DNA of 41,910 nucleotides from Candidatus Thalassarchaeum sp. (GTDB lineage Archaea; Thermoplasmatota; Poseidoniia; Poseidoniales; Thalassarchaeaceae): NCBI GenBank assembly GCA_022449345.1, contig JAKURL010000016.1, positions 1 through 41,910 of the forward strand. Reading direction: 5' to 3'. This document shows positions 18,895-26,224 of the stretch, in pieces. Position 1 is the first letter of the stretch. Every line of letters begins with the position of its first letter. The notes beneath the pieces were generated by a model. The model was not told where the DNA came from and did not search any database. It was given only the letters and a program-made list of their open reading frames with translations. A program made the position numbers and the translations under genes.

Positions 18895-20895
18895 TCAAAA
18901 TTCATCTTCATCCTTTACGGGTGAATTTTCTGTCTTTGGTTTAGGGGTAGATCCTGTTACCAATGAAATTGCAAGTAAGATGAGGATGAGCATGATCGCA
19001 TTACTAGGTTGCACTAACCAAGAAAGCGGACTGTCTCCGTTGAACGATGATTGGGCGGTAAGAGTCACCGGCACTCTCTGTTCAAGACCAAATGAGTCAA
19101 CAAAAACAAGTTCGCCATCGGCAATCATTCCAGGAGTCAATAATCCATCGGGGGCAATATCGAGAACAATATTAGGGCAAGACTGTAATTCTCCTTGAGT
19201 TGGAACACTAGCTATTCGGGAAAGAGCGCCTTCAACTGCGATTGAGTAAGAGCGTGAGCCCTCGCCAGAGCATGATGTTGAGAGAGTTACCTGAGAATTT
19301 TCATCCCATGGAATGATTGCAGTAAGGTGCTCGGAAGTAATTCTGTGCCCAATTGAATACCAATCGAGATCTATTTGCCATGTCTCTTCACCTTCACACC
19401 CAACTGAGCCCCTCAGGTAACCTGAACTTTGACCCATTTGGCTTGGGGAAACTAACTCGATTGTGGATACCCCCTCCTCGATTGAAATTACTCTTGGGGC
19501 AACACCATCAGAGTTAGACGAAGTATATACATCAACATTTAGCTGGCATGGGTTTTCTGCAACAACTGTGGCATAAACCGATTCAAGGCCAAGTATTTCC
19601 AATGGTCCTCGAGGAGGAAGAACTTCGACGGAGGTTGGGCTTTCTGGGAAATCAAAACTAATTGTTGCACTTTCAGAGTTCATTGAGACGATAGTAGCCG
19701 CCCATTGAACCAATCGGCCTCGGCTATCCCGAATTTCCATGCCATTGGCTCCTAATTGACCACCTTCTACAAAGGCATCAGCGGGGTCGCCACTGTCTCT
19801 CCCCCTTTCCAAAGCCGCATCTCCGTCGGCTTCGATAATCTTCAGCCAAGCGGTATCGGGATCTGTGTTGACGAGATTGTTACTCTCATCACCATTATTT
19901 CTGTCTTGAATTTCTACTAAAACACCATGACCAGGGAGGGCTGAGTCAAAACCTGAATCGACCCTAAGCGTGAAGCGTACCCACTCATTTGGCGCAATTG
20001 GCACCTCTAGATACGAACCACCATTGGTGATTCCAGTAATGTTATGTGTAGAATCGATATTTTGTGTGATTAAGATTCCCCTTTCAACTCCAATCAAATC
20101 CATTGTAGAAGAGGAAGGCATAGCTGGCATTGCACCATTGCCGTTCCAGTTGCCACTGGCCATTATTCCCCAATCACCGATTCCATTCCAATTACTCGTG
20201 GGCAAGTCACTATGGACATCATACAAGTCTAGTGCACCCATCTGATGTAGCATTTCATGGACAACCGTACCTAATCCCGAATGTACTGAGGCGATTGTGA
20301 AATGTTCAAAGGTCCAATCACCGATTTCTAACGGTTCTTGCATACTCGTGAAATGACTCCACAGGGAATTAGCTCCTCCATTTTTTTCCTGTGGTTGTGC
20401 AGAATGGAGAATGAGTATTCGGTCAATTACACCATCACCGTTCAAATCCCAATTTGACAGGTCTTCATTCTGTAATTGATCCTCGGCGATTTCTCGCATC
20501 AGAGTCTCAGCTCCATTACCATCTGCACCATGGTCCCTCTCATCTGCAACGTCTTCACCCCACTTTTTTACTCCGTGAGGGGCTTGCCAGACTTCATCAA
20601 ACAATGTAACAGATAGTGTGGATTCACCTGCTGTCATCTGGTCAATATATTCCTCAGCAGAACCGTCTCCAATTAGGAGGTTTGAAGCCATTGCAGATGA
20701 AAATGGGCTATTTGGAAATTCGACTTGCAATACTAACCATTTTTCTTCTGTCTGAATACCCAGAAGAGAAAGACCCTCATCGTCTCCACCGATTGCTTGA
20801 TTAGAGGCCCAATCGTCTACTTTATCGGAATTGAAATAGACTGACAGAGCACCTAGCAACAATAGCGCCGCGAGCACCGCTCTGAGGGCTCTCAT
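18895..20895 (-). CDS. M6-like secreted metalloprotease, membrane anchored
   Basis: Extracellular zinc peptidase of immune-inhibitor-A type (M6), 666 residues. An N-terminal signal or anchor (LRAVLAALLLLGALSVYF) is followed by the catalytic part with HEMLHQMGALDLYD, zinc ligands H213 and H217 and base E214. A SNWNGIGDWGIMASGNW segment after the zinc site is typical of M6. Beta-rich C-terminal regions follow, then a TM helix (NAIMLILILLAISLVTG) and an acidic cytoplasmic tail. It degrades proteins outside the cell while staying anchored. It follows tatC on the same strand, 79 bases downstream, and may share its transcript. Confidence 0.85.
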   Translation of the reverse strand: MRALRAVLAALLLLGALSVYFNSDKVDDWASNQAIGGDDEGLSLLGIQTEEKWLVLQVEFPNSPFSSAMASNLLIGDGSAEEYIDQMTAGESTLSVTLFDEVWQAPHGVKKWGEDVADERDHGADGNGAETLMREIAEDQLQNEDLSNWDLNGDGVIDRILILHSAQPQEKNGGANSLWSHFTSMQEPLEIGDWTFEHFTIASVHSGLGTVVHEMLHQMGALDLYDVHSDLPTSNWNGIGDWGIMASGNWNGNGAMPAMPSSSTMDLIGVERGILITQNIDSTHNITGITNGGSYLEVPIAPNEWVRFTLRVDSGFDSALPGHGVLVEIQDRNNGDESNNLVNTDPDTAWLKIIEADGDAALERGRDSGDPADAFVEGGQLGANGMEIRDSRGRLVQWAATIVSMNSESATISFDFPESPTSVEVLPPRGPLEILGLESVYATVVAENPCQLNVDVYTSSNSDGVAPRVISIEEGVSTIELVSPSQMGQSSGYLRGSVGCEGEETWQIDLDWYSIGHRITSEHLTAIIPWDENSQVTLSTSCSGEGSRSYSIAVEGALSRIASVPTQGELQSCPNIVLDIAPDGLLTPGMIADGELVFVDSFGLEQRVPVTLTAQSSFNGDSPLSWLVQPSNAIMLILILLAISLVTGSTPKPKTENSPVKDEDEF

Positions 20896-20974: not shown

Positions 20975-22084
20975 TCATGGCAACTTTCGATAATCTGCTG
21001 AATAGAATTGCAGAGATTGCCTTCTCCAAGCATCTTCTCCCGAATTGGGTTCGTCCAACCAATTAAGTCCATCCAATTGAGTATTATTTGAATCTAGAAA
21101 AGTACGGACCTTAGACGGTAATGGATTGCCATTACATCCAGTAATTGTCAAACGGTTGACTCCATTACGTCTCATGAGCTCTATCAGTGCAATTTGCTCA
21201 TTTGTATCCAAGCACAGAGCACGCGGTTGTAAAACTGCAATTTCTTGGCCCAGCCAATCCCTGTTAAATGAAGGACAGGCGCCTTCACATGAGCAATCTA
21301 CTAAGGATATTCGTTGCCCTCGACCATCTCTATCAATCACCTGCTGAAACACAGGATTCCGTGAGCCCAGTGGTCCATCAGGTGCTGTTCGAGAAATTGC
21401 TTCAGTCGAAATCATAACCAGAATTGCAATCAAGATACGAAGACCTTCGAAGACCTCTGGCAAAGTCAGGATTAGTAGCCCTCCAACAATTGCTAGGGCC
21501 CTGTTTCGAAATCTGCTACGACCCTCTTCAACCAAACCAAATAATCTTGACAGAGATAGGAATAATGTTGAGGTGAATGAGAGTATCAATATCCATGAAA
21601 GGCCACTCGCCAAAGCAAAAATCTCTGATGCATCGTATCTTGGCGTTACCCCATAAATAGAATCAATTTGGAGGCCCGCTTCAATATAATTTGGAACCAT
21701 AATAAACCATACCCAATACAGAATAATTGGAACGAAGATTGCGTTCACAATCAAGTATGAATCTAGCCATCTTTTCTCAGCCGGAAGAAGGCCCGAACTA
21801 GCAAAAAATCGTAAATCTAGCGAGAAAAATGGTAGCGAAATTACCGATGCTATGATGATTACAGCAGCGAATCTCATCTCTATCCAATCGTATGGCCCAT
21901 ATACCGACAATGCGCCAGAAGGAGATTGAGACAGTGCCCATTCGATCAGGATAGTTTCAATCCAAATTGTAGAAATCCCTAAAGCAATTAGGAAGACAAA
22001 TGCAGTCCTGCGGATAATCACATGTAGGTCGTCTAAGTGGCTAGCGACCGGAACCTTCCGGTCAGCTAGGTTAGTGTTATCCAT
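20975..22084 (-). CDS. tatC: TatC with a Cys-bearing C-terminal extension
   Basis: Substrate receptor of the twin-arginine translocase, which exports folded proteins. The membrane part (about 1-230) has the N-terminal SHLDDLHVIIRR (the family HLxELR, with Asp for Glu) and several TM helices. The P2-loop motif PAEKRW keeps the conserved Glu at 103, followed by YLIVNAIFVPIILYWVWF and a PNYIEAG turn. Unusually, about 140 more residues follow. They carry Cys at about 264, 266, 270 (CSCEGAC), 291 and 317 in a soluble alpha/beta-looking domain. At 369 residues it is far longer than common TatC (about 240-260). Its start is one base after the stop of the upstream CTCH-protein gene, so the pair is probably coupled. 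No tatA is visible here. Confidence 0.85.
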   Translation of the reverse strand: MDNTNLADRKVPVASHLDDLHVIIRRTAFVFLIALGISTIWIETILIEWALSQSPSGALSVYGPYDWIEMRFAAVIIIASVISLPFFSLDLRFFASSGLLPAEKRWLDSYLIVNAIFVPIILYWVWFIMVPNYIEAGLQIDSIYGVTPRYDASEIFALASGLSWILILSFTSTLFLSLSRLFGLVEEGRSRFRNRALAIVGGLLILTLPEVFEGLRILIAILVMISTEAISRTAPDGPLGSRNPVFQQVIDRDGRGQRISLVDCSCEGACPSFNRDWLGQEIAVLQPRALCLDTNEQIALIELMRRNGVNRLTITGCNGNPLPSKVRTFLDSNNTQLDGLNWLDEPNSGEDAWRRQSLQFYSADYRKLP

Positions 22085-22085
22085 C

Positions 22086-23084
22086 TCACATCACGTCTTG
22101 GACGGTTGGTTCTGCTTGAGCGGAACGCACAGTTCGGTATACTCCGTATGAAGCCCAAGCGGCGATGAACCAAGCACAGCCAATCATGAAATCGTGCTGC
22201 CCCCCATTGGATATCCAATCAACTGCTAAGTAGAAGGCCAAAATTGCGACAACGCCGCGACGAATTGCCTGAGGGTATGCCAATTCCATAGCGAGATGTT
22301 CTGGGCCTGGTCCGTATCGTCTTTCCATAATCTCACGCTGGAATACAGCACCTACAATTAAAGCCGTCAAGGAGGTCCAGTAAAACAAATTACCACTCTC
22401 AAACACAGCATCAGAAAGGTGCTGTTGTCGCTCTTTTTCTTTCTCTGCCTCACTTTCTTCTAAGACGAAGAGTGTCTGGTAATCGCCAACAGCGATGGTT
22501 CGAGTTTGCAAAGTAGCATCACTATCACCTTCTACAATAGACCCTGGAGCATTAATCGAGAAACTGAGGATGTTCCAATAATCACCTTCGTCGGGAAGGC
22601 CGCTGTTATCTACAGAATTTCCGGCTAAACTGAAATGAACTGTTCCAATATCTTCTGAAGGTGCGGTCCATGTGAAAGTCCAGACACCGTTGCCAATAGC
22701 GCTGTGAGAAATAGCTGTGGGGTCATCATCAGCCTCCCTAATATCTTCAGTAGTAGCCCAAGAGAAAGACCCCCCGCCATTATCTGTAATCAAGAAGCCT
22801 GCTTTCGTGTTACCATCAGCATCGGCAAGGGTTACGGAGTCAGCTACTGTAACGACCATTTCGTAGGCAGTATCGGGTTCGTACATTACTGGAACTCCTG
22901 AGATCATCACTACCGCTCTATCACCTGGTGCCTCGTTACCATGGCAAGTGCAACCATACTTGGCGGTTTGAGTTCCATCCTCCTCTGAATTGAGATATGG
23001 TGGTCCACCACTATTAGCGAAAGCAGGTATGGCGAGTAAACCTACTAGTAATATCGCCACCAAAAGTCTCGTTGAGCGACCCAT
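22086..23084 (-). CDS. Exported CTCH-motif protein with C-terminal TM helices
   Basis: The 332-residue protein has a signal peptide (STRLLVAILLVGLLAIPAFA). A short region with KYGCTCHGNEAPG follows, then a beta-sandwich domain (about 60-180) resembling the Reeler-like or choice-of-anchor domains that follow a Cys/His motif. A charged linker (EESEAEKEKERQQ) leads to two or three TM helices in the last 100 residues. C-T-C-H is one residue short of a CXXCH haem site, so another metal or a disulfide is more likely. The start is ATG 23084, at the signal peptide; a longer frame to 23132 adds an unlikely N-terminus. It lies directly upstream of tatC. Confidence 0.7.
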   Translation of the reverse strand: MGRSTRLLVAILLVGLLAIPAFANSGGPPYLNSEEDGTQTAKYGCTCHGNEAPGDRAVVMISGVPVMYEPDTAYEMVVTVADSVTLADADGNTKAGFLITDNGGGSFSWATTEDIREADDDPTAISHSAIGNGVWTFTWTAPSEDIGTVHFSLAGNSVDNSGLPDEGDYWNILSFSINAPGSIVEGDSDATLQTRTIAVGDYQTLFVLEESEAEKEKERQQHLSDAVFESGNLFYWTSLTALIVGAVFQREIMERRYGPGPEHLAMELAYPQAIRRGVVAILAFYLAVDWISNGGQHDFMIGCAWFIAAWASYGVYRTVRSAQAEPTVQDVM

Positions 23085-23166
23085 CTTAATGACTTCCTGT
23101 ATTCTTTGCGGTCTCGTCAAACACATAACCATTGCTTGTTCGCCTCCCCTTGGGAGGCGTTGCTAC

Positions 23167-24594
23167 TTACAACTCCTTTACCGCCGTGTTGAGTTCATTC
23201 ATCATCTTCTTTCCGTCGCCGAAAAGCATCATGGTTTTGTCCATGTAAAATAAATCGTTATCCACACCTGCATAGCCAACAGATAGACTTCTCTTGATGA
23301 TTACAACAGTGCGGGCCACATCGGCATCGATAATCGGCATGCCTGCTAATGGACCTTCTCCAGTCCTTGCTGCAGGATTGCAAGTATCATTGGCTCCAAT
23401 AATCAAAACAATGTCTGCCTCTGGCATCTCTGGGTTGATTTCATCCATTTCGATTAATTGTTCATACGGGACATTTGCTTCGGCCAATAACACATTCATG
23501 TGACCCGGCATTCGTCCGGCAACAGGGTGTATTGCATACTTTACCTCAGTTTCAAACTTCTCCAAGACTAGGTCAGCAAATTCCTTCACCTGATGCTGGC
23601 ACTGACTAACCGCCATACCGTATCCAGGGACAATTATGATTTTCTGGGCACCATCGATCATCATAGCTACCTCGTCGGCATCGCTGCCTACCTTAGTGCG
23701 TGTTACCTGTTCCTTATCCGAGCCACCGAAGGCCTTGAACAGGACATCCTTGAGTTGTCGATTCATCGCCTTACACATGATGAAAGTCAAGATTAGACCG
23801 CTTGCGCCGACGAGTGAACCGGCTACGATGAGGACGCTGTTTGAGATAATGAAACCGGTGAATGCGGCGGCGATTCCAGACAGCGAGTTAAGCAGAGAGA
23901 CTACGACTGGCATATCAGCGCCGCCTATAGGCAGGACGAGGAGAATTCCTAGGAGACAAGAAATTCCAATTATCGCGTAGAGGTAATCGGTATTGGTAGG
24001 ATCATCAATCGCTAGGACGATTAGAACTAGAGTTCCTAAGAACAAGATGGCCTTGATTGGATTCAACCATTCAGGGCCCCAAGTAGGTGTACGAATCCAC
24101 TTACCGAAAATTTCCACGCCACCCTTGAGTTTGAGCATCGCTAGAAGAGAACCAGTCAGAGTCATCCAACCAACGAGGGCTGAGAGACCTGCAGCGACGA
24201 CCATAACCTCGAGTGCTAATCCAGTAGGCAACTCTAGTGTTTCATCTTCGATATATTTCCATGACTCAGAAAGCGCTACTAAAGCCGATGCTGCACCACC
24301 AAACCCGTTGAACAAAGCGACAAGTTCTGGCATTCCAGTCATCTCGACACGGACAGCCATAATCCAACCAATTAATCCGCCAATGAAAAGGCCGCTACCG
24401 ATTAGAATCCAACCTTCGATACCTTCTCCGAGTTCCATCTGAAGAATGGTTGTCAGAACTGCAACAAGCATTCCCATCGCACCGAGTTGGTTACCGCGTG
24501 GTGCGGTACGAGGATGTGAGAGATTCTTCAATCCAAAGATGAAGAGAGCAGCTGAGAAAAGATAGCCGATGGCAACCCATTCATCATTGATCAT
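23167..24594 (-). CDS. pntB: Proton-translocating NAD(P) transhydrogenase, beta subunit
   Basis: Membrane and NADP-binding subunit that uses the proton gradient to reduce NADP+ with NADH. It has 475 residues: about nine TM helices over the first 290 or so, then the NADP domain with VPGYGMAVSQCQHQV, AGRMPGHMNVLLAEANVPYEQ, GANDTCNPAA and SLSVGYAGVDNDLFY, all family landmarks. The start ATG overlaps the end of pntA2 by 4 bases. This is the last gene of a three-gene pnt operon. Confidence 0.95.
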   Translation of the reverse strand: MINDEWVAIGYLFSAALFIFGLKNLSHPRTAPRGNQLGAMGMLVAVLTTILQMELGEGIEGWILIGSGLFIGGLIGWIMAVRVEMTGMPELVALFNGFGGAASALVALSESWKYIEDETLELPTGLALEVMVVAAGLSALVGWMTLTGSLLAMLKLKGGVEIFGKWIRTPTWGPEWLNPIKAILFLGTLVLIVLAIDDPTNTDYLYAIIGISCLLGILLVLPIGGADMPVVVSLLNSLSGIAAAFTGFIISNSVLIVAGSLVGASGLILTFIMCKAMNRQLKDVLFKAFGGSDKEQVTRTKVGSDADEVAMMIDGAQKIIIVPGYGMAVSQCQHQVKEFADLVLEKFETEVKYAIHPVAGRMPGHMNVLLAEANVPYEQLIEMDEINPEMPEADIVLIIGANDTCNPAARTGEGPLAGMPIIDADVARTVVIIKRSLSVGYAGVDNDLFYMDKTMMLFGDGKKMMNELNTAVKEL

Positions 24595-24905
24595 CGATTA
24601 CCACCTCGCTTCTTTCCAGCGATCATGTTGAGCATACGATTCGTTACCGCAAAACCGCCGACCACATTGATCATTGCGAGGACAACTGCAACGAATGCCA
24701 GAATTCCGCTGACCAGAGTGTCGCCACCCGCGTAGGCAACATTAGCGCCGAGAAGAGCGCCGACGATACTGATTCCTGAAATCGCGTTAGCACCACTCAT
24801 CAGAGGAGTGTGCAGAGTTGCAGGCACTTTGGTGATGAGCTCGAAGCCAAGGAAAATCGAGAGCGCGAATAATGTGATTGAACCGAGAAGCATTGTTGGA
24901 TCCAT
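24591..24905 (-). CDS. pntA2: NAD(P) transhydrogenase, alpha-2 (membrane) subunit
   Basis: The small membrane part of the alpha subunit, 104 residues, encoded separately as in many bacteria with split PntA. Three TM helices are visible (about 3-20, 40-60 and 65-88). LHTPLMSGANAISGI is the conserved segment of this subunit. Its ATG shares one base with the pntA1 stop (TGATG), and its end overlaps pntB by 4 bases, a tight translationally coupled arrangement. Confidence 0.92.
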   Translation of the reverse strand: MDPTMLLGSITLFALSIFLGFELITKVPATLHTPLMSGANAISGISIVGALLGANVAYAGGDTLVSGILAFVAVVLAMINVVGGFAVTNRMLNMIAGKKRGGNR

Positions 24906-26065
24906 CAGAGAACACCTTCAAGTCGAGTCTGCTTAGGATGCATATTGCCCCCTGAGCAGATTAGAACGCCACCCATACCGGGGACGTGGAAATCATTGCC
25001 TTCTGGAGCGCCGACCAAGACATCATCATCTTCGGAAATCACCAATTCTCCCTCTTTGAAAATCGAGGTAATGAATGTCGTAAGGTTGTTTGAATAGAGG
25101 AATGAGGCAGTATTTGCTAGAGTTCCTGGGAGATTCTTGATGCCGATGATTGTTACTCCATTCGCAGTAACCACGGTCTCTCCTGCCACTGTGTCCTCAC
25201 AATTACCACCGACATCTGCGTTCATGTCGACAATGACTGCCCCCGGCTTGAATTCAGCCACTGCACTGCTTGGCACAGTGATTGGCGCGGGTCGGCCGAA
25301 AATACGAGCAGTGGTGACAATGATGTCGGCATCGCTCGCGACACCGCAAACGGTGTCGTTCACCTTTTGGATGAATTCAGCAGTCAACGGCTTAGCATAT
25401 CCTGATTCATCTTCGAAATCATCCATCCCATCGACTTCGATGAATCGACCGCCGACTGATTCAATCTGCTCAGCGGCAGACTTGCGTACATCAGAGGCGT
25501 AGACAACTGCGCCAAGACGCTTGGCGGTAGCGATGGCTTGCAAGCCAGCGACTCCACTACCCATGATTACGACCTTAGCAGGACGTATTGTACCAGCTGA
25601 AGTTGTCATCATCGGGATACCTTTCGGTACAGACGCAGCGCCGAGCAGGACTGCCTTGTATCCTGCTAGGTTGTCCTGACTCGAATTAACATCCATCGAT
25701 TGAGCTCGTGAAAGACGACGTGGAATCATATCCATCGAAAGCAATGTAATTCCCGCATCGAGGCAAGCCTGAACTTTCTCAGGGTTGCGAAAAGGATCAG
25801 CAACACAAGCGACTACCTGACCAGAGTGGAGGTCCGAGACATCAGGGAGGTGAATCGTGATGAGCAGAGGAGCACCAAACGCGTCGGAGCGAGAGCCAAC
25901 TGTAGCACCACTTTCGGCGTATTCTGAGTCGAGGTGATTCGCAGCAATTCCAGCACCTGATTCGATTACGATCTCGAAGCCAGCCTTGCCCAATTTACGC
26001 AGGGATTTCGGCACGATGGCAACCCTGTCTTCTCCTTCAGGTTCCTTCAACACACCAAGTCTCAT
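24905..26065 (-). CDS. pntA1: NAD(P) transhydrogenase, alpha-1 (NAD-binding) subunit
   Basis: Peripheral NAD(H)-binding subunit of the transhydrogenase, related to alanine dehydrogenase. The 386-residue form starts MRLGVLKEPEGEDRVAIVP, the family's N-terminus. The Rossmann site is VVIMGSGVAGLQAIATAKRLGAVVYASDVR, and further landmarks are LSMDMIPRRLSRAQSMDVNSSQ and VIVDMNADVGGN. The ATG at 26065 is preceded by GTGAT; a TTG at 26083 would add six residues. It is first in the pntA1-pntA2-pntB operon. A likely promoter lies in the AT-rich stretch near 26125-26135 (TCAATAATC on the minus strand). Confidence 0.94.
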   Translation of the reverse strand: MRLGVLKEPEGEDRVAIVPKSLRKLGKAGFEIVIESGAGIAANHLDSEYAESGATVGSRSDAFGAPLLITIHLPDVSDLHSGQVVACVADPFRNPEKVQACLDAGITLLSMDMIPRRLSRAQSMDVNSSQDNLAGYKAVLLGAASVPKGIPMMTTSAGTIRPAKVVIMGSGVAGLQAIATAKRLGAVVYASDVRKSAAEQIESVGGRFIEVDGMDDFEDESGYAKPLTAEFIQKVNDTVCGVASDADIIVTTARIFGRPAPITVPSSAVAEFKPGAVIVDMNADVGGNCEDTVAGETVVTANGVTIIGIKNLPGTLANTASFLYSNNLTTFITSIFKEGELVISEDDDVLVGAPEGNDFHVPGMGGVLICSGGNMHPKQTRLEGVL

Positions 26066-26224
26066 CGAGATCACGCTCTCCAAATGAGCCGTAGGCTCAA
26101 GTCAGACAGGCCAAGCGACCGGAAGTCGATTATTGAATCAAACGGATGGTTTGGTTTCAACACCATTCACGATTGTGTAGCATCGGATAATGACAATAAA
26201 GGGTCACAATGGGTCGGATGAAGA

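Follow-up and report, generated by a model that had tools for sequence, protein, structure and literature searches.

The Tat receptor TatC, which serves the export of folded proteins, is a six-helix protein whose N- and C-termini both lie in the cytoplasm, and the cargo of the Tat system is often loaded with a cofactor. TatC isoforms of the Bacillus type serve separate translocases, and the tandem TatC of haloarchaea (TatCt) consists of two TatC units fused in one chain. In published structures, the signal peptide contacts H12, E15, F94, Y100, and E103 of TatC, and TatA/TatB packs at T208/Q215, flanked by TMH5 of one TatC and by TMH1 of its neighbor (PMC13323110, PMC5201420). In E. coli TatC, substrate interaction was blocked in the F94A/E103A variant, and variants of the polar cluster were transport-defective (PMC5201420). 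The N-terminal domain of heterodisulfide reductase HdrA holds an iron-sulfur cluster, the ligands of which are cysteines of the N-domain and Cys197 of the partner HdrA, and this cluster has been placed on a proposed electron path towards ferredoxin (PMC9012536).

Here, we describe an archaeal TatC paralog, TatC2, with a C-terminal tail that very probably belongs to the kin of the N-terminal domain of HdrA, subunit A of the CoB-CoM heterodisulfide reductase known from methanogens. The gene lies in a stretch of 41,910 nucleotides (hereafter the window), which is one entire contig of the 1.47-Mb genome of a Candidatus Thalassarchaeum sp. A match was present in 56 of 59 related genomes. In the comparisons below, f1 denotes the family of the window, f2 belongs to the same order, and f3 to the same class.

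The tatC2 gene and its neighborhood

The tatC2 gene (20975..22084, minus strand) has an ATG start and encodes 369 aa. The initial annotation had described a frame that extends beyond a TatC core ending near residue 230, and both statements were borne out, as the 369-aa ORF occupies exactly this interval and the six membrane helices predicted by AlphaFold2 stop near residue 231. A frameshift or a junction of two genes was also looked for and none was found, the frame being continuous across dozens of genomes with identical flanking genes. Within Candidatus Poseidoniales (Marine Group II), the order of the window, the fused frame recurs in both families, and its synteny is conserved. Searched in public genomes, the pattern CSCEGACP (11 close rows) retrieved no MAGs apart from those of Marine Group II and of further marine 'Euryarchaeota'. 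Some tatC2 matches cross a stop codon (loci L155, L162, and L163, and genome G024).

The TatC core comprises residues 1-235 (21380..22084, minus). The Pfam TatC family PF00902 matched residues 15-204 with an E-value of 6e-12 and 46.2 bits against a cut-off of 25.1. The NCBIfam TatC models matched weakly, and the equivalog TIGR01912 scored 24.8, far below its cut-off of 192.6. The AlphaFold2 model of TatC2, built from 46 relatives, reached a pLDDT of 90.2 and a pTM of 0.83, with the membrane helices extending up to residue 231, and Foldseek supported the TatC fold (4b4a, E 2.2e-5, prob 1.00).

Upstream, tatC2 is coupled to a gene for a choice-of-anchor V domain protein with a CTCH motif (22086..23132, minus; NCBIfam NF041895, E 3.3e-20), the stop codon of which is one base from the tatC2 ATG. 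The NAD(P) transhydrogenase genes pntB, 4TM subunit, and pntA-like lie beyond it (23167..26083, minus), and an M6-type peptidase gene follows downstream (18895..20895, minus; PF05547, E 4.3e-10). All of these genes are syntenic; the order pnt genes, choice-of-anchor V protein, tatC2, and M6 peptidase was found in essentially all loci with a long enough stretch, including those whose tatC2 has no tail. In the tail-less loci that were checked, the M6 peptidase gene comes immediately after tatC2. The pnt genes and the CTCH-motif protein (window 22086-26083) are thus fixed beside tatC2 throughout the order.

The C-terminal tail: kinship, cysteines, and distribution

The tail carries five cysteines at the residues given by the initial annotation (264, 266, 270, 291, and 317), and the protein has no other. 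C264-x-C266 (21287..21295, minus) and C291 (21212..21214, minus) were invariant in 46/46 aligned tails, as was C317, within a GC motif (21134..21136, minus), in the 45/45 tails that reach this position. C270 (21275..21277, minus) is dispensable; it occurred in 30 of the 46 tails, and the sister family has not conserved it. All tails (52/52), including decayed ones missed by the tail profile (e.g., locus L050), matched the pattern CxC-x(8-40)-C-x(18-32)-C. Invariant positions of the trimmed domain were G3, C13, C15, C40, G65, and C66, corresponding to G254, C264, C266, C291, G316, and C317. The alpha/beta character that had been suggested from the sequence pattern agrees with the AlphaFold2 model, which gives an alpha/beta domain at residues 248-362. 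As both termini of TatC are cytoplasmic, the tail was taken to be cytoplasmic as well. In f2, TatC2 has about 90 residues beyond the HdrA-N domain, with frames of 425-471 aa (L033, L035, L038, L040, L041, L045, and others), and a recurrent Cys pair occurs in its first extracytoplasmic loop (e.g., PCDEGCLNLYDP).

The HdrA N-terminal-like domain was delimited to residues 252-347 (21044..21331, minus) by profile search, hhalign, and Foldseek. No member of Pfam, NCBIfam, or the PDB sequences scored significantly with the tail, whether the tail was submitted as a single sequence or as a profile against the PDB. SIS, MCR D, and a de novo TIM barrel appeared in these searches as chance-level matches and were rejected. 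The profile search of the tail alone, which had been proposed as a check, was informative within the phylum: a profile of 42 tails, run against 293 genomes, retrieved mainly HdrA-type frames outside the order, mostly of about 390-1,670 aa, with E-values from 1.7e-5 to 0.01. Most frames at the 20 matched loci inspected contained an HdrA N-domain, in which CxC, C, and C align with the cysteines of the tail, and one representative matched the solved HdrA 5odc_A with an E-value of 7.8e-39. The tail profile additionally matched two short frames, a stand-alone protein of 130 aa (L089, described below) and a candidate frame of 85 aa (L091).

With hhalign, the tails aligned to 14 HdrA N-domains at 97% probability (E 5.9e-11, score 59.2, 80 columns). 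As controls, 60 shuffles of all columns gave no score above 18.1, and 60 that left the Cys columns in place gave none above 24.4, so that 0 of 120 reached 59.2. Because the Cys-fixed shuffles top out at 24.4, the match exceeds what mere Cys spacing would give. Structure prediction led to the same relative: with the tail-only AlphaFold2 model, Foldseek placed HdrA at ranks 1 to 6 in the PDB (prob 1.00, modest E-values of 3.9e-3 to 9.8e-3, TM-score about 0.5). With the full TatC2 model, TatC chains came on top and HdrA 5odi_A was ranked seventh (prob 1.00). A Cys-rich alpha/beta site is also a feature of MvhD/FlpD; FlpD matched the tail weakly (E 0.064, one member), and HdrA was preferred on profile search and fold.

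TatC2 is not a whole HdrA, as the frame stops 22 residues past the domain and contains no FAD or ferredoxin domains. An own-genome search with the HdrA N-domain found no HdrA in this genome; one weak match (L103, E 0.036) was discarded as a candidate HdrA-N gene, the gene being ParA-like by eye. We also looked for an equivalent of HdrA Cys197: TatC2 has no thioredoxin-reductase-like domain, the core encoded in the window has no Cys, and TatC1, the second TatC of these genomes, has none conserved. Because this counterpart is missing, the tail was regarded as a relative of HdrA-N without implying the same site. The four tail cysteines may suffice for a cluster, or a partner may supply a ligand. 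By analogy with HdrA, the tail probably binds an iron-sulfur cluster. The proposal of a metal-binding type of Cys domain on a translocase receptor thus stands through the HdrA kinship, whereas the part of it in which all five cysteines matter does not, four being conserved.

The expectation that related tatC genes would share the tail held in part: it was found in both families of the order and was missing from several genera of the window's own family. On a tree of 68 TatC2 cores, seven changes of the tail label were required, one of which is spurious, as a contig end truncates L046. When the tree is rooted on f3, the other six can be read as a single gain and as losses in five places (g10, g8, parts of g6 and g11, and, within f2, G243), a direction that depends on this outgroup and on a quick tree with open forks. 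The tail therefore seems to have arisen once and to have been lost some five times. In the tail-less genomes, the tail-profile search retrieved no separately encoded copy of the domain. Since the losses occurred without the loss of TatC2, the tail is accessory; this favors regulation or a specific cargo rather than a core mechanical function.

Reciprocal motif loss in two TatC paralogs

Nearly every genome of the order carries a second TatC, TatC1, located here on another contig (C23:29183-29839) and with a better Pfam score than TatC2. We compared the residues of both paralogs with E. coli TatC as the reference (9dzz). H12, P85, F94, L99, and E103 (E. coli numbers) were retained in 30/30 aligned TatC2 rows, and E15 in most of them. 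The signal-peptide pocket stretch P85-E103, with F94, L99, and E103 (21776..21832, minus), is thus kept in TatC2. The pocket residues are gone from TatC1, with the exception of L99, which is still Leu in 2 of 19. The converse holds for the region of TatA docking: TatC1 retains E/Q170, P172, T/S208, and P210 in 19/19 and D211 in the 18/18 readable sequences, whereas these residues are largely gone from the TatC2 of the order. Among the polar-cluster positions checked for TatA/TatB docking (M205, T208, and Q215), T208 and Q215 are mostly substituted in TatC2, commonly by L and R. In the window, the affected stretch comprises residues 165-220 (TMH5/TMH6; 21425..21592, minus), which no longer carries the canonical [EQ]xP...TPPD motif. 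As the polar cluster of TMH5/TMH6 and [EQ]xP are both absent, TatC2 was filed as a TatC-fold paralog and not as a complete TatC.

An alignment-free count gave the same picture. The pocket motif P-x8-F-x4-L-x3-E was found in 67 of 68 TatC2, 0 of 19 TatC1, and 29 of 30 single TatCs of the phylum. None of 65 TatC2 of the order had the TMH5 motif [FL][EQ]xP; it was present in all TatC2 of f3 (3/3) and in all TatC1 (19/19) and single TatCs (30/30). Single TatCs elsewhere in the phylum thus have both the pocket and the TMH5 motif. TatC1 (locus L108, G000:C23:29183-29839) and the TatC2 of the window were reciprocal in the genomes sampled from the class Poseidoniia.

Reciprocal motif loss between TatC1 and TatC2 is therefore shown at the level of the sequence. 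The simple reading is that the two have been subfunctionalized into an obligate heteromer, and we lean towards the formation of a TatC1-TatC2 heteromer. The likely order of events is that TatC1 lost its pocket before the split of f3, and that TatC2 lost the TMH5/TMH6 motif and gained the tail on the Poseidoniales branch. Because TatC2 keeps the pocket and TatC1 the TMH5/TMH6 motif, the tail would sit on the signal-peptide-reading half of a heteromeric receptor.

Possible roles of the tail and comparison with known systems

The genome contains one gene of the TatA family above the cut-off, with the start MALGSTELIII. PF10518 and TIGR01409 detected no Tat signals in this genome; the same models were positive in 12 of 14 controls. 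Among the ORFs of the window, a simple motif combined with a hydrophobicity filter detected no twin-arginine signal. Because the standard models are silent in this genome, its cargo would be few or carry divergent signals, and it is mainly for this reason that we word the function of TatC2 with caution. A Rieske protein was considered as a cargo that tracks the tail and was rejected, since its matches look like the soluble ring-hydroxylase type and are present with and without the tail.

The reading that we prefer, and to which we assign an even chance, is that TatC2 is the signal-reading half of a split, two-paralog Tat receptor whose HdrA-N tail tunes cargo acceptance through the state of its cluster. 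The TatC2 pocket would take twin-arginine signals, TMH5/TMH6 of TatC1 would dock TatA, and the TatC1-TatC2 hetero-interface alone would be competent. C264, C266, C291, and C317 of the cytoplasmic tail would hold an iron-sulfur cluster on the same side of the membrane as the pocket, and the presence or redox state of this cluster would tune acceptance by gating or proofreading pocket entry. Export may then be tied to the iron-sulfur or redox state of the cell, since the tail is related to the iron-sulfur domain of HdrA. That regulatory gating, over docking or structure, is the role of the tail is a possibility that we hold tentatively. The redox sensor and the factor for cofactor-loaded cargo that the initial annotation had suggested are both candidate roles. 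The full combination is doubtful; it would be a new kind of Tat receptor, with an obligate ring of two TatC paralogs, one reading signals only and the other docking TatA only, and with export gated by the HdrA-type domain. Several genera are without the tail, hence it is not required, and this was weighed against the mechanism, together with the insignificant family searches, the modest Foldseek values, the missing counterpart of Cys197, and the silence of the Tat-signal models.

The absence of the tail from some genera is also what would be expected of a cargo-specific part. It could be a docking or proofreading module at the cytoplasmic face, where cargo loaded with a cofactor, or the chaperone of that cargo, would be bound and inspected ahead of export, the cysteines being a fold or contact site with no redox signal. 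The frequent cofactor loading of Tat cargo and the position of the tail on the pocket-retaining subunit fit this account, but no cargo could be named, and the standard models detect no Tat signals. In addition, solved substrate-bound complexes hold their cargo by the signal peptide only (PMC13323110), and we regard such a module as unlikely.

The persistence of the four cysteines even in decayed tails, while much of the surface varies, is compatible with a structural metal domain, in which they would bind zinc or a static cluster and stabilize a tail that tethers TatC2 to TatC1 or TatA. The tail arose on the branch where TatC2 lost the TMH5/TMH6 motif and might compensate for a missing contact. 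However, the genera that lost the tail keep a TatC2 that is also without this motif, so compensation is unneeded, and the nearest family carries an Fe-S cluster; this account is quite unlikely.

TatC2 could also act outside the translocase, as a signal-peptide-binding membrane protein in another redox function beside the transhydrogenase genes. Loss of the docking motif, the fixed neighborhood with the pnt genes, and the lack of recognized Tat cargo in the genome would agree with such a role, which we nevertheless consider improbable: the pocket is invariant in TatC2 and absent in TatC1, so that without TatC2 no TatC would read signals by the known route, and TatA is retained.

A stand-alone 130-aa HdrA-N-like protein with the sequence CVCLGTCPSF, which weakly matches the HdrA models, is encoded in another archaeon (L089:1329-1718, minus) and just precedes an Fe-S transfer NTPase of the NUBPL/ApbC type and an RseC-like protein. 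The position of this same-domain protein would suit a tail that passes an Fe-S cluster to cargo or joins Fe-S assembly at the membrane, but this is a single locus and the locus of the window has no link to Fe-S assembly genes, making such a carrier highly improbable. Fusion of two genes by a sequencing or assembly error can practically be dismissed, as dozens of independent MAGs, drawn from two families, share the same unbroken frame.

If the losses mean what they appear to mean, the two jobs of TatC, signal reading and TatA docking, have been divided between two proteins in the split receptor that we prefer. If true, nature would provide a clean test of the trimer model now current, which places TatA/TatB between TMH5 of one TatC and TMH1 of its neighbor. 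In the surface ocean, the bearers of TatC2 (Marine Group II) count among the most abundant archaea, and we know of no characterization of their export biology. Open-access full texts contained no report of a TatC fused to an HdrA-type domain or of a reciprocal TatC pair, with subscription papers mostly outside this search. Within that open-access literature, TatC2, as a signal-reading subunit with a conserved domain of iron-sulfur type, would be the first Tat receptor to have a cofactor domain built in.

Compared with the HdrA N-domain (PDB 5odc, 7bkb, and 8rvu), the tail shares the fold, the CxC...C...C in register, and the helix-strand order around the GC motif, but it is C-terminal on a membrane protein, has a shorter first loop, and lacks the FAD and ferredoxin domains and the partner Cys197. 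With canonical TatC (E. coli and Aquifex; PF00902), TatC2 shares the six-helix fold and H12, P85, F94, L99, and E103; it differs in being without the TMH5/TMH6 polar-cluster motif, in its long cytoplasmic C-terminal domain, and in the presence of a second, complementary TatC. The atypical TatCs of Nitratifractor salsuginis and Myxococcus xanthus resemble TatC2 in their extra mass and similar total length; their inserts lie in periplasmic loops, whereas the addition in TatC2 is a cytoplasmic C-terminal domain (PMC13323110). Bacillus TatCd/TatCy also represent more than one TatC per genome (PMC3827258), but TatC1 and TatC2, in contrast to isoforms of this type, each lack what the other retains. 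Finally, the haloarchaeal TatCt has likewise two TatC units per archaeal system, whereas TatC1 and TatC2 are encoded by two unlinked genes.
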